64,000 bases of DNA from assembly GCF_026151205.1 (NCBI RefSeq), contig NC_087075.1, positions 7,396,858 through 7,460,857 on the forward strand. The letters are read 5' to 3'. Source of the stretch: Bolinopsis microptera (taxonomy: Eukaryota > Ctenophora > Tentaculata > Lobata > Bolinopsidae). Of the stretch, positions 3,001-48,451 are shown piece by piece. The number at the start of each line of letters is the position of its first letter. Position 1 is the first letter of the stretch. The translations under genes and the position numbers were made by a program. Under the pieces are notes generated by a model, which was not told the origin of the DNA, searched no databases, and was given only the letters and a program-made list of their open reading frames with translations.

Positions 3001-3819
3001 TATTTATTTATCATCGACATTATTTTATTATCTCTTTTGAAAACTTGTAAGGCTGTAAATGCCATTTGTTCTTTGTTTTGTATAAGTATTTAGCAAGCTT
3101 GAATGAGTCGCCCTCACGAAGACTCCAAAGTAATCCAAATTCATCAACTTATAAAATTTGTTCAAAATGATCTCATTTCTCGACTCATCTTATTCCTCCA
3201 AAATGCTCCCGTCACACTAAAATTCTCCGTTATTCCCCGTTTTTCCCGGTTAGATCACCTCATATTCCAGAATATACCTCGCACTAATTATAGTCCTCAT
3301 TTATCGGTCGTCACGGTGTTTGATTTTTATCGCGATTAGTCGCTAACCTGCCCCCTTCTCTCCCTCCTCCCCCCCCCCCCCCCCCCCATCTGCTCTGGAT
3401 ATCCCTTATGGAACGCTTATCATCTCCTTAGATACCTCCTTTTTCGATTTTACACGGAGTAATCTTTATTTGTTATCCAGTCCAGGGTCTGGTAGGTAAT
3501 GTCACGTGATCAGGACCTTAATATAATCACAAAACCAGACGTTCGGAGACTAAGCGTTCGGGACATTCCCAGCTTGTTGCCCTGGTTTTATGGGTTTTAC
3601 TTGCTATAATAGGCCATGTTGCAATTCGGTTAACGCTGCATGAACACCAAATACTAATTACCAACCAAGGCCTGATCACGTGACCACACATGTTAGAAAT
3701 CACGTGGTAGTCACATGACGAGAGTACCAGTAACTAGACGAGAAATACTTTATAATATTTTTCACCCGACCAACCAGTATCTAAAACTGGCAACATCTAA
3801 TGGGTCCTCTAATTCCTCC
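1..3819. other. Non-coding stretch, no gene seen
   Basis: Only short AT-rich open frames without recognisable motifs are present. I see a GA dinucleotide run near 496-521 and a poly-C run at about 3369-3387. It may be intergenic or belong to a long 5' intron of the LRP gene downstream. Confidence 0.5.
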
Positions 3820-4885
3820 TGCTCGGGGCTGTGTTGGTAGTCACAGGCTTTAGGGGCCTTCTCCTTGTTCGGGACTGTGTTGGTAGTCACAGGCTTTAGG
3901 GGCCTTCTCCTTGTTCGGGACTGTGTTGGTAGTAGCAGGCGTTTGGGAGCCTTCCCTTGTTCGGGACTGTGTTGGTAGTAGCAGGCGTTTGGGGGCCTTC
4001 CCTTGTTCGGGACTGTGTTGGTAGTAGCAGGCGTTTGGGGGCCTTCTCCTTGTTCGGGACTGTGTTGGTAGTAGCAGGCGTTTGGGGGCCTTCTCCTTGT
4101 TCGGGACTGTGTTGGTAGTAGCAGGCGTTTGGGGGCCTTCCCTTGTTCGGGACTGTGTTGGTAGTTGCAGGCGTTTGGGGGCCTTCTCCTTGTTCGGGGC
4201 TGTGTTGGTAGTAGCAGGCGTTTGGGGGCCTTCCCTTGTTCGGGACTGTGTTGGTAGTTGCAGGCGTTTGGGGGCCTTCTCCTTGTTCGGGGCTGTGTTG
4301 GTAGTAGCAGGCGTTTGGGGGCCTTCTCCTTGTTCGGGGCTGTGTTGGTAGTAGCAGGCGTTTGGGGGCCTTCTCCTTGTTCGGGGCTGTGTTGGTAGTT
4401 GCAGGCGTTTGGGGGCCTTCTCCTTGTTCGGGGCTGTGTTGGTAGTAGCAGGCGTTTGGGGGCCTTCCCTTGTTCGGGACTGTGTTGGTAGTTGCAGGCG
4501 TTTGGGGGCCTTCTCCTTGTTCGGGGCTGTGTTGGTAGTAGCAGGCGTTTGGGGGCCGTCTCCTTGTTCGGGGCTGTGTTGGTAGTAGCAGGCGTTTGGG
4601 GGCCTTCTCCTTGTTCGGGGCTGTGTTGGTAGTAGCAGGCGTTTGGGGGCCTTCCCTTGTTCGGGACTGTGTTGGTAGTAGCAGGCGTTTGGGGGCCTTC
4701 TCCTTGTTCGGGACTGTGTTGGTAGTTGCAGGCGTTTGGGGGCCTTCTCCTTGTTCGGGGCTGTGTTGGTAGTTGCAGGCGTTTGGGGGCCTTCTCCTTG
4801 TTCGGGGCTGTGTTGGTAGTAGCAGGCGTTTGGGGGCCTTCTCCTTGTTCGGGGCTGTGTTGGTAGTAGCAGGCGTTTGGGGGCA
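3820..4885. repeat. 47-bp minisatellite, about 22 copies
   Basis: A tandem array of a 46/47-bp unit containing GGGGGCCTTCTCCTTGTTCG and TGTTGGTAGTAGCAGGCG. Variants lose one base (TTCTCC to TTCCC) and drift at the left edge, where CAGGCTTTAGG replaces CAGGCGTTTGG. Because 47 is not a multiple of three, the array stays open in several frames and yields long repetitive open frames on the minus strand, in which different frames encode the same unit. That is an artefact of the repeat, not a protein gene. The array is G-rich on the + strand in an otherwise AT-rich region. Confidence 0.93.
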
Positions 4886-7800
4886 TTCGGATCTTTGCAT
4901 TCTGAGCTGGGCGAGGCTAAAGGTTTGCATTTGAGTTTTGGTGTTCATTAATAAGTCTTATTGTTGTTTGTTTTCTTGAATATTCCGGTGTCAAATGTCG
5001 ATGGGTTGATTGGGTAAGACACTAAATATCGGATATAAGTTATAACAATATACCAGTTTTAACAATGAATTTTGCTTTCTATTTTAAAACCAGGTTTTTA
5101 AATAGAGGTTTCTTAATTATATCGAGGCTAAGAATAGAAATAATTATATTCACTAGCGTTCTTTACAGTTCTTTAGGTATGGTCAGTAAGTCTATCTACG
5201 ACACAAAAGCAGCCGAACTTATCCTTTTTATGAAAAATATTTATAATTTTTTCTTATGAAAATTTCTGATAATTCCGTTATATATGCGACAAAAGGAAAA
5301 ATATTTATATTATCATATTATTGTGTCAAAATTTTATAAGTTGAAACGTGTTGTTGCTTTTGTTGTCCGTATTGTAACTTAAACTTTTGTTAAATTCGAA
5401 CTTGTGATCCTGGTCAACAACCGAAGCTAGACAGTTAGACTTCGGTAAAACTACATAAACATTGTAATCCTAATCTCATTTTAGTCAAATTTAGATGGCT
5501 ATGTACCTTAACCGTGCGTTAACTGTACCTTAATCGTGCGTTAAAACTCGCGGCTTTTAGCCGGTTAATAGCCGGTTGGCATTGTCTGCATGAACTGTGT
5601 GTTAAGTGTCTATCAGCAGATGATATGTCCCGAAGACTCACATACAATTATCAGCGCTCAGTGTTTACAATTTGTCGGGTTTATAACGTCCTGAGAACCA
5701 TATAACCCTTTACAGAGGCCCTTTACTCTGTATGACCCTTTACTCTACCTTCTTTCAGTTATTAAGTGGTTTAAATCTGAGCAATTTTACGTCTTACTAA
5801 ATGCCCATATGTAGGGATAGATCCTTGCTGTCGTTTAGTGATGTTCCTCCTGGACATTCATTTTGAGAACTATCTTTTTGAAAAAATTGCAAGTCAACTT
5901 GTTGACGGACCGACTGTTTACATGAAAATAATGCGTTCAAACCTAATATTTCGATTAATAAAGTAAATTCACCGGCGCTGTTGAATTTTCACTGAGTACG
6001 AGGAATGCGGCGAGTTAAGTATGCCTGATCACGTGTCCATTAGGTGTCCTGTTCTTGTCGAGGAATTGTCGTGTTCATACCTCTTTTCATACGCACCTGT
6101 TTATTGCTGCTAATTCAACGTTTATTACTTTTATTACAATGTAATTACAAATATTCAGTATTAACACAATATTATGTTAATATTAAAATATTGCAAGTAC
6201 TTTGGAGACCTCACCCTAAACGTCTAGGTCTAACGTTGACTTATTACAATGGTTTGACTCGCCATTAAATCTATTTTTGTTTCATTTCACGTCGGCAATT
6301 ATTTAAAACCTTGGCCTCGTCTCAAGTTCACTAGTATAACCTAGTGCCAGTGTTGTTTGACAGATGACCTAATCCTACCTAGATTTAGCGTAACTACACC
6401 AGAGTGGGATTAGTCAGTGTGAGTGTTAATGTTTTCTTATCACTAGTCGGAAACTTTTACCGAGTTGTACACTCTTATTGTTTAGTAGTGTTGTTTTTAT
6501 TTTATTTTTCTTCAAGTTACGTCATGTAAATGTTTTTACTTTTTACTTAAGATTCATGGATTCTTGTCTCCGCAAATGGCATAAGTGTAGAGCCGCGCCT
6601 TCTCTTTATTTTCAGGTCATTTATAAACCTCTCGATAAAAGTTCAAGTTTTATATCTTCAAAATAGTTTAAATTGTATATCTTTTACGGTTTTTGAAAGT
6701 CGTGTTAAAGTTGATGTCGTGGTGTCAGTAAAATGGTACGGATATTATATATCGTCTCGCTTTATATATATAATAAGATATTCAACTCACTGAGTCACTC
6801 CGTTACTTTATTTAGAAATATCAACCTTACTAAAGCCACACCCAGCATGTCAGCTAACAGGAGATTAATGTTAAGTTTCAATTTAATATCGTCAGAATCC
6901 ATGTCTCGTACTTTGAAAGGCTCGCACAATTCGCACATTTTTTGCTCTTGGAACTAGAATGCCCTAGTCTATGCTAATCATTTGAGCTTTCTTTTTTCTT
7001 GTGCCCAACATAATGACTCTCTGATTTTGCCGTGTTGAAAGTCTTTGCCGTGTTTTAGTTCTTTCAGACGGTTTCATTTTAATCTTTACGTCTTTCGAAT
7101 TTCTTTTCTTTTCGACCTACTCGTTTATATTATAAGCTTCATCTTCAGCAATATGTATTATCTGACCATCAATATGTATTATCTGACCAGCCTTTATCTA
7201 GCCGTGATTTAATGTAAGGACTAATTAAGAATTTGAAGGGGCTCACCAGGAAAGAAAAGGAGAAGCCTAACGATAAGATCCCTTGTAATACTCTGATAAG
7301 ACTGAGATTATGACATTGCTGATACTGCACACTTTCTACACACGTTTCAACACTAAACTAATGTCAAACTATTTTAAGAGCGTGTAATTGTCTCACCATA
7401 TAAAGTGGGGCGTGGCACTGAAAGTTCGAGATGGAATTAGGAAGCATGGTCACGGTCCGTCGTGCATCGGGGGTTCGGTTAATCATTATTCTTAGATCAT
7501 CTCGTGAAATATCGATGGTGGTCTGCAGACGGTATTATGCGTTTAGAATATTTCGATGTTTAGCAAAGGTTTCTTAAAGTTCTCCTGAAAATTTCAGTTT
7601 AGAATGCAACCCAAAAAATGCGAAATATGTACAGAAAAACAGAGTAGAATCATTGACTGTATCCATAGCTCATAGTGTAGGTTTTCTCAAAGGACAACTC
7701 AGAAGCTTTCATTACTTCAATAGCTGATCTTCAGAGTACGTGTTGTTCCGTTTTCCGTTACTATCTTAATAGAGTTCCACCGAAACCATTGCAACATGGG

Positions 7801-12364: not shown

Positions 12365-12882
12365 GTATGTCTCGGAGCTAAGTCAGATCTACGCCAGATA
12401 GCCCTCTCTATATGTCCCTTTCCCGCATCAGGGTTCACAGTTCCTCTTTGTTAGAGTTTGTCCCAACTTCCTTCAGTAACATAGACGAGTAGCTTTGTCT
12501 TGGTCCGCCTTGCTGTGCTCTACCATGCATAGGTTCCCATAAGACTAAATCACTGACAAGTAGCTCAGGATGTCTGATGCAGTGTTCTGCCATTTTTAAT
12601 CTCCTGCTTCGTAACTTGTTTGACAGCCTTGGTAAGCTACCATACAAAGTTATATTGCTAACCTTGTCCTTCCATAAGATACCCAGCACCATACGCAACA
12701 TCTTTGTGTACGTCCTGTCCAAACTTTTCTCTTGAGCCTTTTTCAGTGTCCAGGTTTCTGATCCGTAGAGCAGTACTGACTCACAAGCCGCTATGAACAA
12801 TCTAATCTTAAGGCTCTTTGGATTTCCAGATATTCTTCAGTCTATGTAGGGCACCCCATGCTTTTCCCTTTCTAACCTTTGG
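12318..12882 (-). mobile_element. 5'-truncated non-LTR retrotransposon
   Basis: A minus-strand fragment of a LINE-type element. Its open frame (12435-12800) encodes the region after the reverse transcriptase: ACESVLLYGSETWTLKK, DRTYTKMLRM, then RLKMAEHCIRHPELL and LVLWEPMHG, the familiar C-terminal block of animal endonuclease/reverse-transcriptase LINEs. Upstream, GKAWGALHRLKNIWKSKEP lies in another frame, so the copy is broken by a frameshift near 12810. The 3' end is a (TAG)n tail, visible as the CTA run at 12318-12364. The 14-bp duplications on both sides define the insertion completely. It is 565 bp long, so the 5' part was never inserted. The clade is not certain. Confidence 0.92.
12435..12800 (-). 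pseudogene. LINE ORF2 C-terminal fragment
   Basis: About 121 codons from the C-terminal part of a retrotransposon polyprotein, downstream of the palm and thumb of the reverse transcriptase. No catalytic FADD-type motif is included. The upstream sequence continues the same protein in a shifted frame, so this is a dead copy. The apparent start codon is not a true initiation site. Confidence 0.88.
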
Positions 12883-18294: not shown

Positions 18295-18449
18295 AAACGC
18301 CGCTCTGTCCGGAAGGTCAGAGGAAATGCTCCCCGACACACGGTGACGATGACGTGTGTAGACCTGAGTCAGACTTCTGTAACAACGTGGACGATTGTCC
18401 AGGTGGGACCGATGAAATAGGATGTGATTGTCAGAAGGAACCTGATATG
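18295..18449 (+). CDS. LRP4: LRP exon 1 (first found): LDLa repeat 1
   Basis: Acceptor TTTCTGTTTCAG and donor GTGAGG. Encodes CPEGQRKC, DFCNNVDDCPGGTDEIGC: six cysteines and the acidic DxxDE calcium site of an LDLa module. It enters in phase 1, so at least one upstream exon with the start codon is missing. Confidence 0.9.
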
Positions 18450-21400
18450 GTGAGGAGTTAATTTAGTTAATTTGTAGCTAATTAGTAGCTAATTAGTTAA
18501 TTGTTAGTCAACTGATTAGTTAATTTAGTTAATTAATAAATGTTGTAAAACCTTTGCTAAATAATGTCATCACATTTATTATTTAGCTAATTACATTAAT
18601 TAATCATTAGTAAGTTGTAACTAATCATTCACTACTATTAAGTAGCGTACCACGATCGCCTACTCCGGCACAACCTTTCTAGACAAACCACCCTCATTAC
18701 CTCTATAAGAGTTATAATACAGCTCAGTACAAGAAAACGCTCTTAAATTCTACAGTACAGCCGCTCTTCACCCCAAACATTTAACAAATAACCGGCAACC
18801 CGCAGAACCACATTAATTTTACAGTACTTAGCCGTAAAACTGTTAGCGGTTATGAAAAACTGCGGTTGTGATACGTTACATGCTCTATATCAAGCTGTAT
18901 ATCACAGTCAAGATGCCCCTCTCCGCTCGCCAGTGTGGCTGTGCAGCTAGCGACCGTTTCTCTCTTTCTCTCCAGATATGTTTTTATTGCCACAGAAAAC
19001 TCAACGGCACCCCCACAAACATGCAGTGCAAATTTTGGGGTTTTAGTTGGATGCAAAAAAGCTGAGTGGTGGATGTTAAAAGTGTGATATTTACTGATTT
19101 CATTGGTTGTTATTGGGTGTAACTCAGTACAGTAGCGAGTTTTACACAAGGATCACAGAGATAGATGGGGCCTCGGTTCCGGTACACAAGTGAAATAGTA
19201 TGCAATGTGGAGTCAGCCGGCTTCAAAGTACTTTTGTTTAGTCATATCGTCTCCACATGGTCCAAATTTACATCGGATAACTTTAAATATTTTGTTATTT
19301 CGTACTTGTTAACTCTTAAGTCACGAATATTTGGAGCTGATGTGACGCAATGGTATGAAATGTGGAATATGTGGGAATCTGTAGTGATATATCCCCCGCA
19401 GGCTTGGTTAATAATAAAATTAGATTATATCTCCTTGCTTTGCTGCATGTACTGCGACGTTAGGTGTAGTAATACACGGCTACTCTGCTGAGTTTTAAAT
19501 ATTCTGATTATTAGTTACAGGTACATGGACACTTATTATTACTGATGAGTGTGTAGATTCGTAGAATTGCAACCCACTAATTATCATGTTACTCACGTAC
19601 TGCACTGTTGGGATGCGTTGACCGTTGATCCTTTATTTTAGAGACACGTACGTTAAATAAAGAAATAATATAAAATTAATGTTAATGATATTAGGAGGCA
19701 GTGAAACTAGCTGGCTGCAATAAATGGGGACTTGTAACCCCATGGCAACATTAAATGTAATGACCCTGTAATATACATCCTCAACGCATGTATTTATTTG
19801 TAGTTGTGAAAATAGTTTAAAACTATGTATCCCACCGGTGCGGTGGGATACGGTGGCCTGTTCGTTAATTTATTGGATTGTGTCCAAGACTTGGCTTGAA
19901 TTACAGCGAATAAATGAACTCTAGAACCCGGAAATATGAAGTAAAATATCTGAAAATGTGGGTCCTCGATGTCTGTTGTAATTCAACCTGATTATCAGGA
20001 TAATCATCGATCTCGTCACCTTTATTTTCAGTTAAGATGTTCATAAATGAAACTCAAGCCATAACTTTGCTATCGAAATGTATTCTCTTTTCTGTGAAAG
20101 AATTTTAATTTCAGAGTTCAGACGTTTTAAACATAAGTCCAATTTGATTTACTGCAGCCAGACATATCGAGTTCTTCGAATAACAACTTTGATTTGATTT
20201 TAAGCATTTGGCTGACTCACCATCTTAAATAGAAATAAACTTCCGGTAAACATGTGCCCTTAAACTAAGTGTAAGAAGTAAAGGTTATTCTGATGTTCGA
20301 CTAGTAAATCATGAAGTGGGAAGTGGGAAGCTGCGTATAAACTCAACTTCAAAACCACATAAGTATATTATAATCGCTAACACTATAGTACTATTTTCCT
20401 TTGAAGTTAACTGAAAATGACAACCTCTCTTCGGTTCTAATGTAATTTATCGTTATAATCACACTCACCGTTACAGTGGCCAGCTTAAAAGACAACACAT
20501 AAATATTTAACTTTATTATTTAACTTCATTAATTAACCTTTTTAATTTTCCCAGATACCCTGCCCTGGAAGCAGGGACTGTATTAGAAAGGATCAATGGT
20601 GTGACCGAACCCCTGATTGTGATAACTCAGCAGATGAACGGGAAGGATGTTGCCCACATGGTTAGTTGTATAACTTAAGTATTTTCAGTCATAATTTTCA
20701 TTCCATACAATTTGAATAATCTATAGAGATTGTAACTATTTGCCTTCCTTTTGGACCACCTCTGACATGTCAATGTGTTCTGAGTTGTCGCTCTTGTACT
20801 GTCAATGTATACTCAACCAATGCACTCGAAAGATTTCTGAATCCGTCCGATCGCAGAGCATGATTAATAAAATTTCTATTTCTGGATAATGAATCTCGAA
20901 TGTTACACCTGATATTCCCAAAGGGTCTACAGAAAGTGCTGTATAATTGTAGAGGTACCCGCGCAAACGACTGTGTATTACGCGCGCGCTGTAGATTTGT
21001 TTAAAAGTCGAAACTGCATGCTGATCAGAAGGGCTGGACGTGTTCGATCAAATAACTAAACACTAATGAACTTGTCCCTCAGGCTTCCACCGTCCCAACC
21101 AAAACCTGCTCGAGGAATGTGTCGATGAGAACGAGTGCGACCGGCAAGACGGGGTCTGTTCTCAACACTGTGCCAATACCGAGGTTAGCAGGAATTTGTA
21201 GTTCTCGAGGGATAGTCAAGTGCTTGGAATTTCGGTTGTGAACTTGGAGACAGAATGTCGCGTACAATTTCACCGCACTTGCTGTAGAGATGCGTGTTTT
21301 TAAGGAAGGCGTGAAAGTGAGAGATGAATTGCGGTTGTGATACACACAAATGCGGTTGCGCCGTCCTTCATTTCACATGAACAGTGGGAAGGAGTCGTTT

Positions 21401-24400
21401 ACAGACTACTGAGTTGAGAGAGAAGCGACCGCATCTCCGCACAAACTCGCCTAACAGTTTACACAAATTGGACGTTACTGATTCTCAGGAATCGTGGAAT
21501 CGTCTAAGAGTTTTAAATTATGATTATGAAGAATTACATCTTTATGAAAGAATCGCCTTACTCCAATATAATCAGGAAACGTCAAGACTCATGAACATAT
21601 TTAACATACAATCATTGTACGAACTTCTTTAACGAAACTGCAATGTTGTTATCATAATACAGCCTAGAAATTATCATTAATTAGCCAATTAGCCTAGAAA
21701 TTATCATTAATTAGCCAATTCAGGGTGGATTTACTTGCTCTTGCGACGAGGGGTACGATCTTGTGGATACGACCAAACAGAACGGTGTATTTTCATCCCT
21801 GTCTTACTGCAGGGCCAGAGGTTGACTTTCAGACTTTATATTTTTATGCCTGATAAATTCGCCGTGGGAACCCCACACAGACAAAACTACATTAGTTACC
21901 ATAAGTTACAATTAGTTACCAGTATTTACCCTTAGTTACCATTACAAAACTACCACGCACATGATTTGATACATCATTATTTTTAAATTGAGATTAAGAT
22001 TACGGTTTTGGTTAGCAGTGGGGGTTGAGGTTATGGTTAAGCCAACACATGCTACGGCGACGTAGATGTCTGGGGTTTTGTCTGTGTGGGTTTTAGTCTG
22101 TTCGAGGTTATCTTCGGTCATCATGAATCATCGATATAATAGTCACTATCGATTTAAATTGTTTTTATCTGCTTTATACATGAGGTATTTTCAAGAATGA
22201 TTAGTTTTTGCTACTATAATACTGTCGATGAACTTTATTCACGGTTCTGTTTTTTTCAGGGGACATGAACATAGTCATCACAGTTAGAGCTGACAGTCTC
22301 TATCATCTGAATGTGCCTTCAGGGAGTGGTGGTAAGTGCATTTAACTTTGTGTCAATAAATTGACGATATTCGGATACTCTTAATTATAGATCTGACTAT
22401 AAGATATTTGACACGAGAGGTTATAATTTCTAATAACGATTGTATCGCAGAAGCGTTTGACTCGGATACAGCAAGATCCTCCGGAAACTTCAAATCAGTG
22501 ACGATGAGTGGAGAGTACGAGAAATCAAAACTCCTCATGGCAGATTTCGATTTCGACATCAGGTCGGAAAAGTAACCTCTACTGATCATAATGATAAGAA
22601 AGAAATCTAACTTAATGTTCACAAAGTTGCAATTTAAACTTTCATGATTCAGTATTTCAACTTCTGTCTTTCCTCCAGAAACAAGAAGTTATTCTGGTGC
22701 TCCACGAAACACTATGCAGATTCCACCTACGAGAGAGCTATTTGGGTAGCAGATCTAGGAGACAATCTAGAGACCCTGAAAAACTCCAAAATGATCGTCA
22801 ACAACATCAACTGCGACAGGTAATTTAGTATACCGGACAACGGTCCAAATTCGGCAAATATTTATACATCCTTAATGGCCTCTTAGCCCTTGGTTAATCT
22901 AACCATTCGCCTCGTTTCAGCATGGCAGTGGATTGGATAAACAAACTAGTCTACTTCACCTCCGACACTAACTCAATAGAAGTGGTCGACTACGAGGGTC
23001 AGAACCGTCGGGCGCTCATCTGGACAGGACTCAGTGCTCCTCGAGCAATCGAACTGGACCCGGAAGCAGGGTTACTCTTCTACACAGACTGGGGCCAGAC
23101 CACCGCCCACCTCGGTAGGAGTAACATGGACGGTGCTGACAGGAGAAGTCTGATTAACAACACCTCCACTAATGACCCGCAGATTAAGTGGCCTAACGCG
23201 CTCACTATTGATCACCCTAACAAGAACCTCTACTGGATGGACGCTGGTGTGAAGAGTATCGAGTGTATGAGGTATGATGGGAGTGCTCGGTACACTATCT
23301 CAAACAAGGACTCTGCTCTGGGTTTCCCCTGGAGAATGAGAGTGTTCCAGGATCGGGTGTACTGGCGGGAAAGAGACGGCGAGGTCAAATCAGCTAACAA
23401 GTTTACCGGTAACCAGTTCGTAACTGAACGAGTAGTGAGTGCTTTAGGGGAGAAGTTAGCAGTGGGAATGGGACTGAGAATATACCACCCCGTCATCCAG
23501 CCGGAATCCACTCCGAGATGTCGACCTGACCTCTGCCAGAAGCTGTGTCTACCCATTCCTAATGGGTATCAGTGCGCCTGTCCCACCGGACACAGTCTCC
23601 TTCCTGATAACTTCAACTGTGCCTACAAAATGGAAAACTTTGCGTTTGTTGCAACGAAGGAGATGATAGTGAAAACAGCCCTGGAACCTCTGGAACCAGT
23701 TCTACAACCTATTATGTTCAAGGAAAACAAATACATGGTTCGTTTAATGTTTATTTGTTTCCGTGAGTAGAGGTTTAATGGCACCCTGTATTTTGAAAAT
23801 ACTGATCAATTTTAAATTGATAGATTTTCAGAGACCAGAGAAAATGTTAATTGGCAGGAAACAAGTATATGGATGTATTTTTAGAACAACCATGCATATC
23901 ATTCGTATTATGTATATTATCCACAGGTATGCATTGCATAACCGTGTGTACCCATAAATGTATATTGTATAACCATGTATACCCCAGCTATGTATATTGT
24001 ATAACCATGTTTACCACAGGAAGGAACGTTTTGGTCAGTAGATTTTCATGAGAACTGGGTTTATTACAACACAATATCTGAAAACATCTCACAAATCAGC
24101 ATCCGAAGAATGCTGTTTGACGGCAGTGACTCTAAGGTATTTCTTGAGACGAAACAGGCGGCGTATATCATCATGCCCATTTGAAATTTCAATTATTATG
24201 ACTTAAATCTGTGGAAAATTTAAAAAATCCCTGATCCATTGACAATTCAGCTTATTGATGTTATTTATTTAATTGATTATATTTAATTAGGACACCCCAA
24301 ATAGTTCGCACACCTCTAACACTTAACCAGATATTGTACAAGGTTGTAGTTAATGAAAAGTCGGACGGTGGTCTCTCCATCGATTGGTTAAACGAGAAGA

Positions 24401-27400
24401 TCTACTGGTCAAGCTTCGAGACAGTCAGTGTAGGGGAGCTGGATGGCAGTGTGCACACGACCCTACTGCAGAAAGAGGGCTTTGACTTCAGGTTAGTTGC
24501 TAAACTCATAAATCACGCCCTACCGTGAGTTTTTTATATCATTTCCGGTAGGAAGCATCGTGGCTCTCAGCAATTATTCAAAGCCAAAACTGAACATGTT
24601 TAAAAAAGAGAAAAATTATTACAAAACTTGTGTGTCGCTGAAACTCAGAACGAACCCTGAATTCTCTTGCCTCGTCGTAACATGAACCTCCTTAACTACT
24701 GCCTTCTCAGGGATATCCTAGTGGACCCATGCAATGGTTACATCTACCTAGCAGCACTAGGACGTGGAATATACCGGTGCTCTATGGACGGTGATATCTC
24801 TAGCTTTGTAGAGATAGTCCGGCTGGGGGAGGATAGTATGCCTTCTGGTCTCACTCTCGACAGGGATATTGGAGCGTGAGTTACATTATCTTACAAACAT
24901 TTTGTGTTTTAAATCTGTTTTTGTTGCTTCAATCTGTGTGGTGGCTCTGGTTGCAAGACACAAAACCAACTTCTCGCATTAGTATATTATATATATTTTA
25001 AATGTATCTCACATTCTCACACGCTGTACCTTCTCAGATTATTCTTCGCCAACATGAACTCTATCTACAAGCTGAAACTCAAACTGAAACTCCGAGACTC
25101 CCCTCCGGTCCCCGAACCTATAATCAACAGACCCGAGCGAGTTAACATCAACTCCCTGGACGTATGGGGTCGTGACTGGATCATCTGGACTGAGAACTAC
25201 AACATCTCAGCAACTGATTATAAATATGAAAAGAGGGACAGACTTGTTGCCAGGGAGAAGATAGTCCATAAGAACGGAGACGAGGAACCCCCGGTACAGA
25301 TAATACGAGAGGACATCAAGAAGGACACATTCGGTATCAAGGTCTCTCCCAAGAGGGACAGTGGGTGTAGCAATCACTTAGCTGCTAACCCGTGCTCTGA
25401 AAACCAGTGCTCACATATGTGTCTGCAAAGCCAGGTAATTAGCTAATTAGTAAATTCAGGTAATTAAATTGCTAATTAATAGATTAATTAGTAACTTGTT
25501 TTCCACCCATTGGTTTCAAATCAAATGATTGTGTAATTGAGTAATTTTGCAAGTGATTAACTGATTAATTCAGGTGGAGGGCCTTGAAATGCACCCTGAT
25601 AACCAGAAGAAGTATCGTTGTGTTTGTCCGACCGGGTATGCGCTCAAAGAGAATTCCACTACCCAGTGTGCAGATGGTATGTTGTTAAACTTAGTTAAGA
25701 GGAAAATATCTTAGTTTTAAATTAAAGTTTAAATGTGTTCTTGAGACTTATCTTGGATTTTATATCCCTTGATTATAGTTTTAATGGTGCTCAAAAGTTC
25801 CTCAAAATGCTCTAGTTAGAAACGTAACAATTTTCCACACAGAAATAGCACAGTATCTGGTGTACAATCCTGACAGCGGAATTCAGACCGTTTCCCTGGA
25901 TACCAACTTCTTAACCCCTATCAAAGGACCGCCCAACATGTCATTCAAAGTAACTATAATACCTCGTTATCTTGTTATTGGACGTGATGTTATTTCTAAT
26001 ACTGAGAATCTTAATATTGGACATGATGTTATTTCAAGAGCTGAGATTCTTTGTAATAAATAATGCTATGAAAGACTTAGTTACATCTACTGCAATGTGA
26101 AATATCTGCTGATAGTCTGTTAACACTACCCGTCAAGTAACAACATTCGTTCAAACCTACAATTTTACATAATATTTGGTGTTAAGTTGGAAACTTACAA
26201 GTTGTAAAACACTGTTAAACAACACCACCTATATAATAATAATTATAATAATGATAAATATCTATAATAATACTAATAATTAATTAATTAATTAATTATA
26301 ATTAATTGATCAATTAGGTAGAATTACCTATAATTCTCCAGGTCACCACATTTGACATTGATGCTAAGAACAACCTGGTCTACTATTGTTACGGTTACCC
26401 GAACAAGTATGAAGTGCGGGGTCTGTTCGACGAGACGGGGAATGTTACCTCCCTCCCCATTTACACGTCACGATGTAGTGGAATGTCGGTGGAATGGGTT
26501 ACCAATAAACTGTATATCGTGGACACTACTGGAGGTAAATGTAGCAAACAAATGTAGCAAAAAAATGTAGCAAAAAAATGTAGTAAACAAATGTAGCAAA
26601 CAAATGTAGCAAACAAATGTAGCAAAAATCGGCCATTATTTATCAACTATTAATTAATTTCGGTATGAGCTGAAAGTGTTCACTCTATTGTAACCCTAAT
26701 ATAAGATGTGAATTTTGAACCTCCCTCAGGCTTGATCCTGGTAGTAAACCTAGACAAACCGTACCTGACCAAGTCTATAGTACACGCTCTGAACAACCCC
26801 CTGGATATTGTGGTTCACCCCAGAAAGGGGAAGATATACTGGATCCTAGAGTCTCACAGTATCATGAGTACTAACATGGACGGGACTGATCTGATAGAGG
26901 TAATTTTCTTAATTAGTTAATTATTTGCCCTTGAACTATTTAGTTAATTATCTTTTTTAGATAGTAAGTTTTTTTCATGAGTTTGACGATTTGCTATCAG
27001 CCAATATTACATTATTTATGATGGTTTTATCTTCAGACAATTGTTTCCGTAAACAAAGGCCCAGAAGACCAGACCCTCACTCTTGATGACTCCACCACCC
27101 AAATGTTCATAGACTTCACCACTGACCACCTTTACTGGACCGAAAACGTTCACAAAAGAGGAACAGGCTTTATCGGGCTGATAAAACGTGTGGACTTGAA
27201 CACGAAACAAGTGGAAACTGTCCTTGAAATGTTACAAGAACCCCTTGCCGGTGCTACCATGATCAACAACAACATCTACTTCACGGATCTAGCCGAGGGT
27301 AGGTTGTACCGCAAGGACGGAGCCGCAAACGGGACCTTCCTCCTTACTACTTCCAGCGAGAGCTTCCTGTTGTCCTCCCAGTCCCAGCCTCAGTTACTGG

Positions 27401-30400
27401 AGAACCCGTGTGAGCGGATAATGGAGGCTGTTCTGATTTCTGTCTCCTAGATAGTGTTCTTAGATCCAGGTTCGTGGTTACTTTCTGGGCTTTTTGATTT
27501 TTTAAAGATTATTATTTACATCCCAAGTTTCTAGAAATTTCTCTTACTTTAAACTGGAGTAGTTTTCTATACTTTATAAACCATCCCTTCTCCAGGTGTT
27601 CATGCCCAACTGGTATACAACTGCAAGACTCCATGAACTGTGACACACCGCACAACAAGAGCCTGATCGTTGCTAATGACACCAGGATCAGCATGATATC
27701 TCTGAGCAGCAGCGAACCCGTTATAGATCGGGTCCTCACCAGCGCTCCCAAAAACCTGAAAAGTATTGATGTGGACATTAGAGAGAACAAGATCTATTGG
27801 TCTGAGATAAACTTAGAGGGGGGAGCAATCTGGGTGTTGGATATGAAAACGGGTGAAACTGAGAAGATTGTGTGGGAAGACATGCTGATCCCTAACAGTA
27901 TCGCAGTGGATTGGAATGCTCAGAACATCTATTGGGTGGACTCAAGCCCTGAAGGAAAAGGAACCCTTGAGGTGATGTCGCTCAGATCCAGGAAGAGATC
28001 CGTCCTGAAGAAGTATGAAGAGGTTTCAAAGCGTCCTCATCAGATTGTACTGGATCCCAACGAGAAACTGCTCTTTGTATCCTACCCTGTTCCCGTCAAA
28101 GAAGTCATAACCCGGATGTGGATGGATGGTTCAAACCCGTTTGATATCATGACCATGGACATTCGTGGGCCGACACAGCGCGGTGCACAAGTCGTCAGTT
28201 CTCTGGCAATCGACCTGATTGACAAGAAATTGTACTGGAGTTCCAACGACAACATGAACCATATTTCCTCTTGTGACTATGCGGGAGAAAACAAGGACAT
28301 CAACAATGATCATCACGCCAGGACGATCAAAACTATCAGTATTCTCAATAGGAACGTGTTTGTTCAAAACTTGGAATACTCTGCTGACACACAGGTTAGA
28401 CAAGAATCGATTTATTTTCAGAAATCCCTTATTAGGGTTTACAGTATAAGTATCCATTCCCTTAGATTTTAATATGAGATACCTGATAACCTGAATAATT
28501 GTACAAATGTATAACAAATGTATAGCAAATGTATAGCAAATGTATTACAAATGTATAGCAAATGTATTACAAATGTATATACAAATGTATAAAAATGTAC
28601 ATTTTTGCAGGTCATGGAGTACCAAGAGTACGAAAACAACAACGGAGAAGAAACTCGGCACTCTAAAACCTACACCTTCCACCACCTAAAAGGAAACATC
28701 GTGTCAATGAGGGTATCCAGCGTGGCAGTGTTAGAAGACGCGACCCAACCCTGTCGAGTAAACATGTGTGTGGAACGCATCTGCATTCCTAATGATATTG
28801 AGCCCTTCTGTAGGTGTGGAGATGATGATCACAGCTGCAAGGAGGAGAACGAGCAGAAGGTCAGTTTTAGTTCGTATAATTAGTATATTAAGTAATTAGT
28901 ATAATTACTAATTAGTATAATTACTAATTAGTATAATAACTAATTAGTATAATAACTAATTAGTATAATAACTAATTAGTATAATTACTAATTAGTATAA
29001 TTACTAATTAGTATAATAGGTAATTAGTCACTAGATTGAGACACATATTGGCGTTTATAAGTGTAATTACCGTCCAATTAGCGTGTTATTATAACATAAT
29101 TAAGGTACATCTATCTCAGGTGGAAGTTGTTATGAACCATCTCCCCGACACCCCGTCTCTGTGTAACGAATCCATCTGCAACGGTCACGGAACCTGTATC
29201 CAATACAAGCTGTCCAACAATACCAGTTATGGAATGAAATGCGAGTGTGATGAAGGCTTTGAGAGACCCAGGTTAGTGGAGTTGGTAATTAACTAATTAG
29301 GTAGTTAATTAATTGATTTATTAGTCAATTTCTTTATTAGTTGAATCGTTAATTTATAGTATTAATCTTCAAACATTTTCTGATCAAGGAATGTTTTTGT
29401 TTCCGAACTTTTCGCGTTCATCAATTGGTTAATCGTGTACTCTAGTTATGTACTTCTAATTAGTTCATCACGTACTCGGTTGGTTAGATAATTAGTAATT
29501 TCAGGTGCGCTAGAAAGAAAGGAGGGAACATTGCTATCTCCCCGGCGATAGCAGTGCCAGTTGTTATAGTTCTCATTGGCATAGTGGTTCTAGTTTTATG
29601 GTGGCACCCCAAGTTATGCAACTACCTTAACACGCATAAGGTAATGATTGTTTGGGGGCACCTAGGGGTGGTCCGGGGGTTTCAAACTACTGCTCGCCCG
29701 GACAGAGAGCTCCTTACTCAACAAAATAGCTCCTTACTCTGAAACCACTATCTGAGGATATATCTCTCAACTATTTGTTAGACAAATCTCAAATAGCTAG
29801 CTCAAAACCGGCGAACAAGTTTGAAACGCCTGAAACCCCCCCTGACGCCCCCAATTTATATACCCCTCGTTTTCTAGCCCCCTCCTCTCCCCCTGCAGGT
29901 GTAAGACCAAAAGTAAGGAGCCCCCCGTTATTGTGATTGGGATTGTGGCGGCTGTGCTGGCTATCGTGTCGTGCTTAGTGCTTTTATGTGCCTGTCGGAG
30001 GGTCCGGGACAAAACTTATCAAAGTGTAAGTTTTGTGATGTAACCCCTAGTTACCAGCTAGTTACCTCCTAGTAACTTAGTAACCCCTAGTTACCACCTA
30101 GTTACCATCTTGTAACCTTTAGTTACCACCTAGTTACCACTAAGTTACCACCTAGTAACCATCTAATAACCACCTAGTTACCATTTAGTTACCACTGCAT
30201 TTAGTTACCACCTAGTAACCCCTAGTTACCACCTAGTAACCATCTAGTTACCATTTAGTTACCACAGCACTTAGTTACCATCTAGTTACCACCTAGTTAC
30301 CATATAGTCTCCACATAGTTACCACCTAGTTACCACATAGTTACCACCTAGTTACCATCTAGTTACCACATAGTAACCACCTAGTTACCACCTAGTAACC

Positions 30401-31328
30401 CCCCTCCACTATTATACACTGGGTACCAAAAGTTGGCACCTCTTCAAATTCGATCTCAGAGGAGCCAGCTTTTTGTGGTTGGAGTATAAATGAGATGTGG
30501 TAACTAGGTAGTAACTAAGTGGTAACTAGGTGGAAACTAAGTGGTAACTAGGTGGAAACTAAGTGGTATCTAGGAAATGTGTGCACTGCATTGCCATTTG
30601 TTGATCGTAGTCGTCATTGGATTGTAGTCCTCCGTGCATAGCGCTTCGCCGTATAACTTGGTATACGTCTTTTAGCTTAGAAAACGTGACATTTATTTTT
30701 GACCACTTTGGTGAATTGGTGCATGTAATGGAATGTGATGCTAGGATAGCTAAAAAATTACCGGCATTTTAAATTGATGCCTTAATTAGTTCCCGGTCCC
30801 TTAGATTGGTTCCCAATATATACTTCCCTCATTACTGTGACATCATTTTAGTTTTTGCATGACAACACTGCATTTTAGTCCAATAAGTTTCCTTGTAAAC
30901 AGGCTATTCCATAATGCGGTTGCTCAAGCATGCCTTCTTCTGTGTCTTCCTTTTCTGTAGCCCCTTTCAATTTTAAGCATTTTAGACTTTGAACCAAGTT
31001 TTGCATGTCACGAAAATGAAGATGTTAAAGTGTTTTTCAGTATTTTTCTACCTTTAATATCATTCTGATATCAGGGAAAATCCCTTGCTGTCTAAACTTC
31101 CTAAAAGGTTAATGCTTGTATACTCACATTATAAGGTTAATGCTTGTATACTCACATATTTTAACCACCTAGGACCGGTTACGAGACCACAGCTCTGAGG
31201 GAGACGACACCGATACTTTCCAACAAGACCAACAAGCCAAGAAGTTGGCCCAACTAGCTAATACCGGCATCGGACGATCTTACCTTCATACCACGAAAGA
31301 CAATGCATGCGTGGAAGTTAGTGTATAA
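18295..31328 (+). CDS. LRP4: LRP4-like LDL-receptor-related protein, 3' part of gene
   Basis: Twenty-three exons join to about 1,645 codons, lacking the amino-terminal signal exon. Module order is LDLa, LDLa, EGF/EGF-Ca, propeller 1, EGF, propeller 2, EGF, propeller 3, EGF, propeller 4, EGF, EGF, transmembrane helix and a tail of about 60 residues. LDLa repeats first, then four YWTD propellers, is the layout of LRP4; LRP5/6 place the LDLa repeats after the propellers. LRP4-family proteins are single-pass surface receptors, known in vertebrates for agrin/MuSK and Wnt-antagonist binding. Human LRP4 has eight LDLa repeats; only two are visible here. I see no NPxY motif in the tail, which ends VEVSV, a possible class II PDZ ligand. 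Exon 17 carries a 1-nt frame break and two TM exons are alternative. LRP4 orthology is inferred from module order only. Confidence 0.8.
18450..20554 (+). other. LRP intron with no feature
   Basis: AT-rich intron. The open frames inside it show no domain, and I see no extra LDLa exon. Confidence 0.6.
20555..20660 (+). CDS. LRP4: LRP exon 2: LDLa repeat 2
   Basis: Encodes IPCPGSRDC, WCDRTPDCDNSADEREGCC. The first cysteine of this LDLa comes from the end of the previous exon. Ends in phase 1 at GTTAGT. Confidence 0.9.
21083..21183 (+). CDS. LRP4: LRP exon 3: EGF-Ca, first half
   Basis: Encodes CVDENECDRQDGVCSQHCAN. The DENEC start is typical of a calcium-binding EGF module. Acceptor CCCTCAG, donor GTTAGC, leaving phase 0. 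Confidence 0.9.
21664..21723. repeat. 29-bp tandem duplication at exon 4 acceptor
   Basis: TAGAAATTATCATTAATTAG followed by CCAATT occurs twice in tandem. The second copy runs directly into the CAG acceptor of exon 4. Confidence 0.85.
21724..21820 (+). CDS. LRP4: LRP exon 4: EGF-Ca, second half
   Basis: Encodes GGFTCSCDEGYDLVDTTKQN, ending YCRAR with the last EGF cysteine. The donor at GAG/GTTGAC is not a strong consensus, but it is the one that gives phase 1 into exon 5 and precedes the in-frame TGA. Confidence 0.8.
22260..22331 (+). CDS. LRP4: LRP exon 5: start of propeller 1
   Basis: Encodes DMNIVITVRADSLYHLNVPS, the opening strand of a YWTD propeller. Acceptor TTTTTTTCAG, donor GTAAGT. 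Confidence 0.87.
22451..22562 (+). CDS. LRP4: LRP exon 6: propeller 1
   Basis: Encodes FKSVTMSGEYEKSKLLMADF and DFDI, entering in phase 1 and leaving in phase 2. Confidence 0.87.
22679..22819 (+). CDS. LRP4: LRP exon 7: propeller 1
   Basis: Encodes RNKKLFWCS, a YWTD-type blade in which W is retained, and ERAIWVADLGDNLETL. Ends in phase 2 (GACAG/GTAATT). Confidence 0.88.
22921..23737 (+). CDS. LRP4: LRP exon 8: propeller 1, EGF, start of propeller 2
   Basis: A long exon. Blades include AVDWINKLVYFTS, LLFYTDWG (the canonical YTDW), NLYWMDAG and DRVYWRERDG. An EGF follows: CRPDLCQKLCLPIPNGYQC, ACPTGHSLLPDNFNC. FAFVATKEMIV then opens propeller 2. The open frame runs past the donor, but GTTCGT at 23738 gives phase 0 into the next recognisable blade. 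Confidence 0.92.
23935..24019. repeat. Tandem repeat ending in the exon 9 acceptor
   Basis: Diverged units of about 31 bp containing TATATTGTATAACCATG. Two of them end in ACCCCAG and ACCACAG, so the 3' splice site itself appears to be part of the repeat unit. Confidence 0.7.
24020..24136 (+). CDS. LRP4: LRP exon 9: propeller 2
   Basis: Encodes GTFWSVDFHENWVYYNTISE and IRRMLFDGSDSK, a YWTD-class blade. Exactly 39 codons, phase 0 at both ends. Confidence 0.87.
24331..24491 (+). CDS. LRP4: LRP exon 10: propeller 2
   Basis: Encodes GGLSIDWLNEKIYWSS and VGELDGSVHTTLLQ, a clear YWTD blade (IYWS). Ends in phase 2. Confidence 0.9.
24711..24875 (+). CDS. LRP4: LRP exon 11: propeller 2
   Basis: Encodes RDILVDPCNGYIYLAALG and IYRCSMDGDIS. 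Acceptor CCTTCTCAG, donor GTGAGT. Confidence 0.9.
25038..25434 (+). CDS. LRP4: LRP exon 12: end of propeller 2, start of EGF
   Basis: Encodes LFFANMNSIYKLKLKLKLRD, SLDVWGRDWIIWTEN, then GCSNHLAANPCSENQCSHMC, the first half of an EGF (NPC...CSHMCL). Donor GTAATT in phase 0. Confidence 0.9.
25574..25676 (+). CDS. LRP4: LRP exon 13: EGF, second half
   Basis: Encodes YRCVCPTGYALKENSTTQC, the C-x-C-P-x-G half of the EGF after propeller 2. Phase 1 at GTATGT. Confidence 0.9.
25843..25949 (+). CDS. LRP4: LRP exon 14: start of propeller 3
   Basis: Encodes EIAQYLVYNPDSGIQTVSLD and PIKGPPNMSFK. The donor GTAACT at 25950 joins in phase 0 to VTTFDID in the next exon. Confidence 0.85.
25950..26341 (+). 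other. LRP intron 14
   Basis: AT-rich intron with TAATTAAT runs. The open frame that continues past exon 14 is read-through into the intron. Confidence 0.7.
26342..26534 (+). CDS. LRP4: LRP exon 15: propeller 3
   Basis: Encodes TTFDIDAKNNLVYYCYG and SVEWVTNKLYIVDTTG. The 11-bp repeat array begins within its donor sequence GTAAATGTAGC. Confidence 0.88.
26535..26628. repeat. 11-bp tandem repeat starting at exon 15 donor
   Basis: About eight units of AAATGTAGCAA. The first unit overlaps the 5' splice site GTAAATGTAGC. Confidence 0.88.
26730..26899 (+). CDS. LRP4: LRP exon 16: propeller 3
   Basis: Encodes LILVVNLDKPYL, NPLDIVVHPRKGKIYWI and STNMDGTDLIE, a canonical blade ending in the NMDGT motif. 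Confidence 0.91.
27037..27469 (+). CDS. LRP4: LRP exon 17: end of propeller 3 and EGF, with 1-nt frame break
   Basis: Encodes DFTTDHLYWTENV, NNIYFTDLAEGRLYRKDG, then LLENPCERI of an EGF. The frame then closes at a TAG (27448-27450). In the +2 frame the EGF continues GGCSDFCLLDSVLRS and joins exon 18 (RCSCPTGIQL). The exon is 433 nt; entering at phase 0 it should be 434 nt to deliver the phase 2 that exon 18 needs, so one base is missing, probably in GGATAATGGAGG near 27417-27423. Either the assembly lost a base or the allele is damaged. Confidence 0.85.
27596..28394 (+). CDS. LRP4: LRP exon 18: EGF end and propeller 4
   Basis: Completes the EGF (CSCPTGIQLQDSMNC) and encodes most of propeller 4: IDVDIRENKIYWSEIN, IAVDWNAQNIYWVDSS, IVLDPNEKLLFVSYP and LAIDLIDKKLYWSS. 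Enters in phase 2 and leaves in phase 0 at GTTAGA. Confidence 0.93.
28505..28600. repeat. 11-bp tandem repeat before exon 19 acceptor
   Basis: Units of CAAATGTATAG or CAAATGTATTA, about eight copies, ending about 10 bp before the exon 19 acceptor. Confidence 0.88.
28611..28859 (+). CDS. LRP4: LRP exon 19: end of propeller 4 and EGF
   Basis: Encodes VSSVAVLEDATQPCRVNMCV, then IEPFCRCGDDDHSC, a compact six-cysteine EGF. 83 codons, phase 0 at both ends. Confidence 0.88.
28875..29030. repeat. 16-bp tandem repeat after exon 19 donor
   Basis: About nine units of ATTAGTATAATTACTA, starting about 15 bp after the exon 19 donor. Confidence 0.88.
29120..29271 (+). CDS. LRP4: LRP exon 20: membrane-proximal EGF
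   Basis: Encodes LCNESICNGHGTCIQYKL and GMKCECDEGFERP, ending in phase 2 (AG). The sixth EGF cysteine is not in this exon; it is supplied by either of the two alternative exons that follow. Confidence 0.9.
29505..29640 (+). CDS. LRP4: LRP exon 21: alternative TM exon A
   Basis: Enters in phase 2 and encodes RCARKKGGN, then the hydrophobic segment ISPAIAVPVVIVLIGIVVLV followed by LWWHPKLCNYLNTHK. It supplies the final EGF cysteine and a transmembrane helix. It leaves in phase 0 at GTAATG and so can splice in frame to the tail exon at 31173, but not to exon 22, where the join would read GTG TAA. Confidence 0.82.
29899..30025 (+). CDS. LRP4: LRP exon 22: alternative TM exon B
   Basis: Enters in phase 2 and encodes RCKTKSKEPP, then VIVIGIVAAVLAIVSCLVLL and CACRRVRDKTYQS. 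It has the same layout as exon 21: AG/GTG(C/T) start, final EGF cysteine, basic linker, TM helix. It leaves in phase 0 at GTAAGT. The juxtamembrane side is more basic and cysteine-rich (CACRR, possibly palmitoylated) than exon 21. Confidence 0.85.
30041..30405. repeat. 11-bp tandem array (TAGTTACCACC)
   Basis: About 30 units of TAGTTACCACC with many variants, starting 15 bp after the exon 22 donor. Confidence 0.9.
30421..30575. repeat. Imperfect palindromic spacer and inverted 11-bp units
   Basis: After a spacer that is itself an imperfect palindrome (CCAAAAGTTGGC against GCCAGCTTTTTGTGG), the 11-bp motif returns in reverse complement (GTGGTAACTAGG, about 30497-30575). The two arrays could fold back on each other. 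Confidence 0.65.
31173..31328 (+). CDS. LRP4: LRP exon 23: cytoplasmic tail and stop
   Basis: 52 codons including the TAA at 31326. Encodes DRLRDHSSEGDDTDTFQQDQ, AKKLAQLANTGIGRSYLHTT and the terminus KDNACVEVSV. No NPxY endocytosis motif. V-S-V at the end fits a class II PDZ ligand (inference). Confidence 0.85.
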   Translation, partial: DRLRDHSSEGDDTDTFQQDQQAKKLAQLANTGIGRSYLHTTKDNACVEVSV

Positions 31329-45100: not shown

Positions 45101-48100
45101 CCCTCATTACTCAGGGTACACTACACACCATGGCCCTTAATTTGCTTTTTGCTAGCCTGTCACATGACCAATCTAGTTGCTTGTCACGTGTCCTCCAGTC
45201 TAGTTTGGCCCACAAAGCTGAGATGTGCGACCACCACCTTTCTGGCTGATAGATATTATAGTTAATAGTAATAATATTAATTAATATTATAATTCTGCAA
45301 TAATTTTAATACTTGCTATGATATTAACGTGTCCAGGGCCAGACAGTGATAGTGGATATTGACAGTGGAACGTTGAAAATACCACAAGATATAGAACTGG
45401 AGATCCCAGAACTTCCTGTTTCGTTCAGGAAATACCTGACGCAATGTTTGAAGGTTTGATTTAAGTTTTACCCAATGGAAGATAGCTTAAATGTTTAAAT
45501 ATTGCCGAATTTTAAATGTTAATAAACGTTGCTGCTTTGAGGCAGCTAATGGTGATTTAAACTGTTCAGTCAAATTTGTAAGAATTTGTTCTTTTCAACA
45601 TTGATTTGATAGTTTTCTAAAATATCCCCCCTCCTAGTTGATACTGGACCCGAAGTACCTGCTGAGTGATCTGGCGTTTGCTCCTACTCCTCGAACTATA
45701 TCCCCTCCAAATGTACAGGACAAAGAAATCAGGGCTGTAAGTAGACAATTAACTAATTAATGATTCATTTGCTGGTCAATTAGCGGGAATTTTATTGGTT
45801 CCTGTCCGGTATTTTCTGTCAATCAAGATTTAATATGATTACCCACTTGCAATTTTTAAGGGTTCTCAATTACCTAATTCAATGTTCGCCAATGATTGAA
45901 TGATGAATAATAAATTCCTCTACCGCATATTTCGACAAATAATACCGCAGTTATTATAGTCCGTTTACCATCAGCCGTAAAAATGCCAAATTATCCGTGA
46001 GCTCCTTGTATTGTCGCACTTTTATTCGCAAACGTTAGTGATAAAATATATTATATATTATCAGTACTCCTCAATTTCCATCCTTGAAATAAGACCGATT
46101 CCATTGGAGTATAAAAGCAATGTATTGCAGCTGTAAAGAAAGCTCGATATATATTATGTAAGGGAGAGCTGAGCTGAATCGAGTATCGCCGGACCTAGTT
46201 TTAAAAATGTAAGTTCTTGTATCGAGCAAAATCTCGCTCGATACAGATTTGTGACAGTTAAGGAAGCCAGAGAAAAGAGAGAAAGTTTGAGCTACAAGCC
46301 AAGTTAGCACGGTCCGATATTATATGATATATATTGCTGGAGAGGAAGCTGTGTAATACAATGACGAGGGGAGTCTTCTAATTAGCTAACTAATTAGCTA
46401 ACTATAATATAATCAGCCTTTAATTGGTCTGAAGGGAGAGTGTGGTGTATAATACCTTGTGCTCACACTTTACAGGGATGTATTGATAGATGTTACGTGT
46501 AGTTTGTGCTGTGATGATAAGCTGTAAGAGATCATGTAACACTACCTAATAAAGCTGTATGAGAGACTTGTCACGGGAGAGAGCGAGTTGTAACGCACAC
46601 AAGTTGTGAAAAGTGGACGGGGGAAGTGAGGTTGTAATGTTGTCCAGTCCAGGGTAGGTGAGGTTTTAATGTTGTCCAGCCCAGGGAAAGTGAGGTTGTA
46701 GTGTTGTCTAGCCCAGGGGAGGTGAGGTTGTAGTGATGTCCAGCCCAGGGGAGGTGAGGTTGTAGTGTTGTCCAGCCCAGGGGAGGTGAGGTTGTAGTGT
46801 TGTCCAGCCCAGGGGAAGTGAGGTTGTAGTGTTGTCCAGGCCAGGGGAGGTGAGGTTGTAGTGTTGTCCAGCCCAGGGGAGGTGAGGTTGTAGTGTTGTC
46901 CAGCCCAGGGTAGGTGAGGTTTTAATGTTGTCCAGCCCAGGGAAAGTGAGGTTGTAGTGTTGTCCAGGCCAGGGGAGGTGAGGTTGTAGTGTTGTCCAGG
47001 CCAGGGGAGGTGAGGTTGTACTTTGTAGTGTTGTCCAGCCCAGGGGAGGTGAGGTTGTAGTGTTGTCCAGCCCAGGGGAGGTGAGGTTGTAGTGTTGTCC
47101 AGGCCAGGGGAAGTGAGGTTGTAGTGTTGTCCAGCCCAGGGGAGGTGAGGTTGTAGTGTTGTCCAGCCCAGGGGAGGTGAGGTTGTAGTGTTGTCTAGCC
47201 CAGGGGAGGTGAGGTTGTAGTGTTGTCCAACTCAGGAGAGGTGAGGTTGTAGTGTTGTCCAACTCAGGAGAGGTGAGGTTGTAGTGTTGTCCAGTCCAGG
47301 GTAGGTGAGGTTTTAATGTTGTCCAGCCCAGGGAAAGTGAGGTTGTAGTGTTGTCCAGGCCAGAAGAGGTGAGGTTGTAGTGTTGTCCAGCCCAGGGAAA
47401 GTGAGGTTGTAGTGTTGTGCAGCCCAGGTAAAGTGAAGTTTTAGTGTTGTCCAGCCCAGCCCCCAGGGGAGGTGAGGTTGTACTAGTGTTGTCCAGCCCA
47501 GGGGAGGTGAAGTTATAGTGTTGTCCAGCCCAGGGGAGTCGAAGTTGTAGTGTTGTCCAGCCCAGGGGAGGTGAGGTTGTAGTGTTGTCCAGCCCAGGAA
47601 AAGTGAGGTTGACGTGTTGTCCAGCCCAGGGGAGGTGAGGTTGTAGTGTTGTCCAACTCAGGAGAGGTGAGGTTGTAGTGTTGTCCAGCCCAAGGGAGGT
47701 GAGGTTGTAGTGTTGTCCAGCCTAGGGAAAGTGAGGTTGTAGTGTTGTTCAGCCCAGGGGAGGTGAGGTTGTAGTGTTGTCCAGTCCAGGGGAGGTGAGG
47801 TTGTAGTGTTGTCCAGCCCAGGGGAGGTGAGTTTGTAGTGTTGTCCAGATCACGGGAGGTGAGGTTATAGTGTTGTCCAGTCCAGGGGAGGTTGTCCAGC
47901 CCAGGGGAGGTGAGGTTGTAGTGTTGTCCAGCCCAGAGGAGGTGAGGTTGTAGTGTTGTCCACTGTCCAGCCCAGGGGAGGCGAGGTTGTACTTTGTAGT
48001 GTTGTCCAGCCCAGGGGAGGTGAGGTTGTAGTGTTGTCCAGCCCAGGGGAGGTGAGGTTGTACTTTGTAGTGTTGTCCAGCCCAGGGGAGGTGAGGTTGT

Positions 48101-48451
48101 AGTGTTGTCCAGCCCAGGGGAGGTGAGGTTGTACTTTGTAGTGTTGTCCAGCTCAGGGGAGATGAGGTTGTAGTGTTGTCCAGCCCAGGGGAGGTGAGGT
48201 TGTACTTTGTAGTGTTGTCCAGCCCAGGGGAGGTGAGGTTGTAGTGTTGTCCAGCCCAGGGGAGGTGAGGTTGTACTTTGTAGTGTTGTCCAGGCCAGGG
48301 CCAGGGGAGTTGAGGTTGTACTTTGTAGTGTTGTCCAGGCCAGGGAAAGTGAGATTGTATGGGTTGTTTGGGCTGCTACACAGTTTGGAACTCGTACAAG
48401 TTCCCACAGTTTACTACTCCGTACCATTTTGTACTTACCGTGTAGTTGTAG

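Follow-up and report, generated by a model that had tools for sequence, protein, structure and literature searches.

The question raised by this locus is why a receptor gene of the ctenophore Bolinopsis microptera should carry, between the exon for its last EGF module and the exon for its cytoplasmic tail, two neighbouring exons that each encode a transmembrane (TM) anchor, and whether the two are used as alternatives. The reading we favour, with a probability of about 0.7, is that these exons (A and B, Table 1) form a mutually exclusive pair providing two alternative TM anchors for one LRP4-like receptor. The window referred to throughout is the whole stretch of DNA analysed, 64,000 nucleotides running from 7396858 to 7460857 of contig NC_087075.1 (C4), and positions are counted from its first letter.

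Table 1. Features of the LRP4-like receptor gene in the window
Feature	Position	Strand	Remarks
LDLa exon, likely to belong to the 5′ part of the receptor gene	18295..18449	+	pattern scan match at 18378; borders by eye
17 exons: a pair of EGFs, four propeller segments and EGF-like modules	21083..28859	+	hand-built model, one open frame
EGF exon	29120..29271	+	all but the last of the six cysteines of the membrane-proximal EGF; exit phase 2; Pfam EGF 21.4 bits against a cut-off of 21.5
Exon A	29505..29640	+	sixth EGF cysteine, basic linker, TM helix, HPKLCNYLNTHK; acceptor −1.8, donor 4.1, hydropathy 3.13
Hairpin in the A–B intron	29652..29854	+	−76.8 kcal/mol, z −4.1; 11 nt after the A donor, 44 nt before the B acceptor
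Exon B	29899..30025	+	sixth EGF cysteine, basic linker, TM helix, CACRRVRDKTYQS; acceptor 8.8, donor 3.2, hydropathy 3.23
Common cytoplasmic tail exon	31173..31328	+	51 residues, then TAA; C-terminal EVSV; no NPxY
AATAAA	31539..31544	+	likely poly(A) signal of the receptor gene

The 17 exons of the model and the EGF exon that follows them can be read as a single open frame, in a model built by hand in which a start at 24343 and an end at 27407 are uncertain. The class B repeat of LDL receptors (Pfam Ldl_recept_b) was found above the cut-off in propeller segments 1, 3 and 4 and was not found in segment 2. When the segments were compared with PDB chains one at a time, LRP4 ranked first for segments 2, 3 and 4 (119.9, 149.5 and 174.7 bits, respectively). 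In segment 1, too, the highest-scoring single domain among those shown belonged to LRP4 (147.5 bits, against 123.1 for LRP2), and among single-propeller chains LRP4 scored 155.7 and LRP6 140.1 bits. Whole-chain scores of the joined protein favour LRP2, a chain with more propellers to match. The order on LRP4 is collinear for segments 1, 2 and 4, while segment 3 aligns best with the fourth rather than the third propeller region. The earlier note had called the receptor LRP4-like, a designation that is justified by these segment-wise scores. The EGF module between segments 3 and 4 (exons 27037–27407 and 27596–28394) appears to be without its first half, the readable part being ...NPCSCPTG...C; the donor at 27407 is weak, and an exon may have been overlooked in the model.

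The receptor shares with the single-anchor form of LRP4 a probable LDLa module, an EGF pair, four propeller segments, an EGF, one TM helix and a short tail. It differs in that one LDLa was found in the window, in its NPxY-free tail and in the possession of two anchor exons. Vertebrate LRP4 has a cluster of eight LDLa modules at its N terminus and an NPxY in its cytoplasmic tail; here the pattern scan of both strands gave a single LDLa, for a gene model that runs from 21083 onwards, and the NPxY motif is absent from the 51-residue tail. In LRP5/6, LDLa modules lie between the propellers and the TM segment, whereas the scan of the window detected none after the propellers.

Re-reading the sequence confirmed the coordinates, phases and splice dinucleotides that the earlier note had given for A and B. 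The EGF exon ends at ...GAGACCCAG/gttagt, exon A is bordered by ttcag/G TGC...AAG/gtaatg and exon B by ctgcag/G TGT...AGT/gtaagt, and the acceptor of the tail exon at 31173 reads cctag/GAC. Both exons are entered in phase 2 and left in phase 0, and they are thus interchangeable between the common EGF and tail exons. As had been claimed, either one supplies the sixth cysteine and then encodes a linker of basic character and a single TM helix, followed by a juxtamembrane stretch. The frame is open through EGF, A and tail, and likewise through EGF, B and tail, while joining A to B produces GTG TAA right at the start of B, so that the proposal of an either/or choice enforced by the reading frame holds for the DNA as read. 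With both exons skipped the anchor is lost and the tail is read in a shifted frame that adds 28 residues. The statement that the isoforms would differ only in the TM helix and the juxtamembrane residues was too narrow, since the linkers outside the membrane differ as well (about ARKKGGNIAISPA in A against KTKSKEPP in B). Helix B has three cysteines in its inner half and, in its core, small residues at a spacing of four; A has the latter only at its outer end. On our splice-site scale, which uses generic frequencies, the acceptor of B exceeds all 18 other acceptors of the gene model and that of A exceeds five of the 18.

Such a pair is hardly expected by chance. We scanned both strands of the window and of 66 kb upstream of it (260 kb of strand sequence) for cysteine-first exons entered in phase 2 and left in phase 0, with an acceptor of at least −3 and a donor of at least −1 on the same generic scale and a hydropathy of at least 2.2. 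The scan returned two matches, A and B, adjacent and in the right intron, against a mean of 0.02 and a maximum of 1 in 100 dinucleotide shuffles; these figures are to be read with the acceptor cut-off in mind, which was loosened after a stricter one, tried first, had been seen to keep B alone because of the weak acceptor of A. Dropping the cysteine rule gave seven rows, and A, B and variants of the two account for four of these (shuffles: mean 0.65, maximum 3). The synonymous codon use of the two exons, which were kept outside the training set, is coding-like: both score above every one of 113 intron windows, which overlap and come from the very introns used to train the measure on intron sequence. 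Within the coding range the scores are low: of 64 coding windows, 5 score no higher than A and 4 no higher than B. Codon use and the design scan together suggest that A and B are real coding exons at the weak end of the range of this gene, and both are likely in use.

The earlier note had described the two exons as duplicated, for which we found no support. The protein alignment of A with B scores 5, which is reached by 745 of 1000 region-preserving shuffles (mean 9.7), and the score of the exon DNA is reached by 68 of 500; including 100-nt flanks lowers this to 7 of 200, a hint at most. Homology by tandem duplication is common in mutually exclusive exon pairs, though not obligatory, and A and B would either have diverged beyond recognition or be of separate origin. 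In a search of the genome for paralogues (265 Mb in 232 contigs), the tail exon and B matched only themselves, and A matched itself and one weak place (E 0.23), where 3.1 kb were read; no clear second copy emerged.

The intron between A and B is 258 nt long and is largely taken up by a hairpin (Table 1), leaving 55 nt outside the hairpin base; the shortest intron of the gene model measures 101 nt. A degree of structure equal to that of this intron is seen in 6 of 160 random segments when judged by z, and in 8 when judged by energy. The hairpin is kept when folded in a 2.3 kb context (the outer 38 of the 40 pairs listed, from 67 in all), where the mean unpaired probability is 0.25 at the A donor and 0.38 at the B pyrimidine tract. 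A mobile-element origin of the hairpin seems unlikely: a 21-mer search allowing up to two mismatches gave this copy alone, and so did a DNA search, which skips very common words and therefore falls short of proof. Strong structure is a feature of all four introns around the anchor exons, the A–B intron among them, with z values of −5.8 for 28860–29119, −3.3 for 29272–29504, −3.8 for 29641–29898 and −7.9 for 30026–31172, compared with +1.4 to −2.0 for the remaining 16 introns of the model (60 shuffles each, 24 for 30026–31172). This clustering was spotted post hoc and partly reflects tandem-repeat content, and we attach little weight to it. Inverted arrays of an 11-nt repeat lie at 30046–30400 and 30497–30574 within the structured stretch 28860–31172. 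When these four introns were compared for pairing of the docking-selector type, the duplexes involving the A–B intron did not rise above shuffles: the three found were reached by 10, 7 and 52 of 60. The duplexes of the EGF–A intron with the B–tail intron and with intron 28860–29119 were each reached by 1 of 60 shuffles, in introns that are rich in repeats.

In the mechanism that we propose, either A or B would complete the last EGF, provide one TM helix and join the common tail in frame. A message containing both exons would stop 121 nt before the last junction and, by the usual rule on the position of a stop relative to that junction, should be removed by NMD, while skipping both would give a soluble, frameshifted product. 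With its strong acceptor B would probably be the default, and A, with its weak one, the regulated choice. Exclusion might also be helped at the level of splicing, as the hairpin would shorten the path from the A donor to the B acceptor from 258 to about 55 nt, a figure that simplifies matters since the donor and the pyrimidine tract are themselves partly paired. A path of this length is near the steric limit for mutually exclusive exons, put at about 50 nt between donor and branch point (PMC7969005), and joining of A to B could thereby be hindered while the four wanted joins are left free. The two anchors would then give the same ectodomain and tail a different location or assembly, much as the Dscam1 anchors do. 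The B form may be palmitoylated or dimerise more readily, given its three inner-half cysteines and the spacing of small residues in its core. Raft partitioning and shedding, which the earlier note had named beside these two, would be further possible consequences.

The main competitor of an either/or switch is that one exon is in use today, most likely B, the other being a former or rarely used anchor whose decay is still to come. The far stronger acceptor of B speaks for it, but exon A has kept its frame, its phase, the cysteine, the TM helix and a splice site at either end, its codon use is coding-like and 5 of the 18 acceptors of the gene score below its own, which together make this account unlikely in our view, though it deserves to be kept in mind. 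The weak acceptor of A could also be taken to mean that cryptic sites happen to enclose an open frame in one of the two cases; with shuffles averaging 0.02 exons of this design per 260 kb, and with the codon use of both exons above every intron window, we consider it extremely improbable.

Two further accounts change the end of the protein instead. Exon A might serve as an alternative last exon, with the frame open beyond 29640 for 34 more residues to a stop at 29740–29742 and hence a different tail; yet neither AATAAA nor ATTAAA occurs in 29641–29898, and A has a good donor (4.1), so that little credence is due to this arrangement. On the other account the main alternative to the anchored form would be a soluble receptor from messages that skip both exons, the presence of the pair being incidental. 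The frame obtained by skipping stops after its 28 residues inside the last exon, where by the NMD rule a stop is expected to escape. Against it, the last EGF would be left without its sixth cysteine and two intact anchor exons would have no explanation, and we hold this improbable too, if a shade less so than the alternative last exon.

The closest precedent is exon 17.1/17.2 (TM1/TM2) of insect Dscam1, a known two-way TM switch. The TM1 form is largely confined to dendrites and the TM2 form is enriched in axons (PMC2566808); two variants of exon 17 occur in beetles also (PMC8042237), and the fly variants fall within one clade of homologues (PMC1397879). In Dscam1 as in the present gene, two alternative TM-encoding exons are set in a receptor that is constant around them, although the receptor families are unrelated and the Dscam1 variants are homologous whereas A and B are not recognisably so. 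A paper on Dscam1 exon 17 reportedly joins steric hindrance with RNA secondary structure in its title. Set against Dscam1, the hairpin of the LRP4-like gene is local to the intervening intron.

The ways of enforcing mutually exclusive exons named in PMC7969005 are frame incongruity combined with NMD, RNA structure, and closeness of donor and branch point below about 50 nt. Exons 4a and 4b of OGDH are kept apart in the last of these ways, the donor of the upstream exon having a branch point too near to it, and α-tropomyosin, to which the same paper refers, is a further case of such steric exclusion. The introns of OGDH and α-tropomyosin have distant branch points; in the present gene the closeness is proposed to be made by the hairpin. 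A looser parallel is offered by the P2X7 receptor isoforms, for which a review has the terms 'alternative transmembrane' and 'mutually exclusive exons'. P2X7 has an alternative first TM segment, and is an ion channel as opposed to a single-pass LRP.

We found no paper title describing a TM switch in an LRP, in a partial coverage of the literature that makes this weak evidence of absence. A and B are a real, well-formed pair and very likely act as a TM switch of the either/or kind, of which no example was found described for this receptor family. If so, splicing-based anchor switching, known from Dscam1, would reach an LDL-receptor-type receptor and, with ectodomain and tail constant, the gene would provide a clean natural test of the effects of TM helix and juxtamembrane residues on location and assembly. 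Should the hairpin act as proposed, it would be a simple and testable means of keeping two exons apart. A more far-reaching version is that the anchor swap arose from two exons of separate origin, with double exclusivity through frame and hairpin (258 nt reduced to an effective 55 nt), independently of Dscam1 and convergent with it on anchor exons and RNA structure; we put this forward tentatively, as rather doubtful in its entirety.

Relatives of the gene occur elsewhere in the genome. A second LRP-type gene lies on the same strand, some 56 kb before the window begins (C4:7338130-7340651; L016 8131-9732 and L017 502-651), with recognisable LDLa, EGF and one propeller and 36% identity over 86 residues to the receptor of the window; neither a 3′ end nor an anchor was found for it. 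In an LRP paralogue at C3:18637001-18638392 (L029 2-1393), the last EGF, the TM segment (hydropathy 3.53) and the tail are encoded in one long open frame, so that the anchor is not split there; a further hydrophobic open segment is found nearby (L029 1826-1912). Inspection by eye of two other stretches near class B repeats revealed no clear anchor exon. The main propeller exon gave 11 pattern matches in prokaryote genome contigs, none confirmed as a relative, and one unconfirmed match in viral contigs.

Other features of the region can be mentioned briefly. The open frames 12438-12836 (minus strand) and L016 3001-4494 resemble pieces of non-LTR retroelements. Long minisatellites occupy 3816–4888 (47-nt unit) and 46620–48275 (32-nt unit), and in the former all three minus-strand frames are open for more than 350 residues. 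At 62911–63123 a 106-nt unit occurs twice in tandem, almost without change (99% matches).
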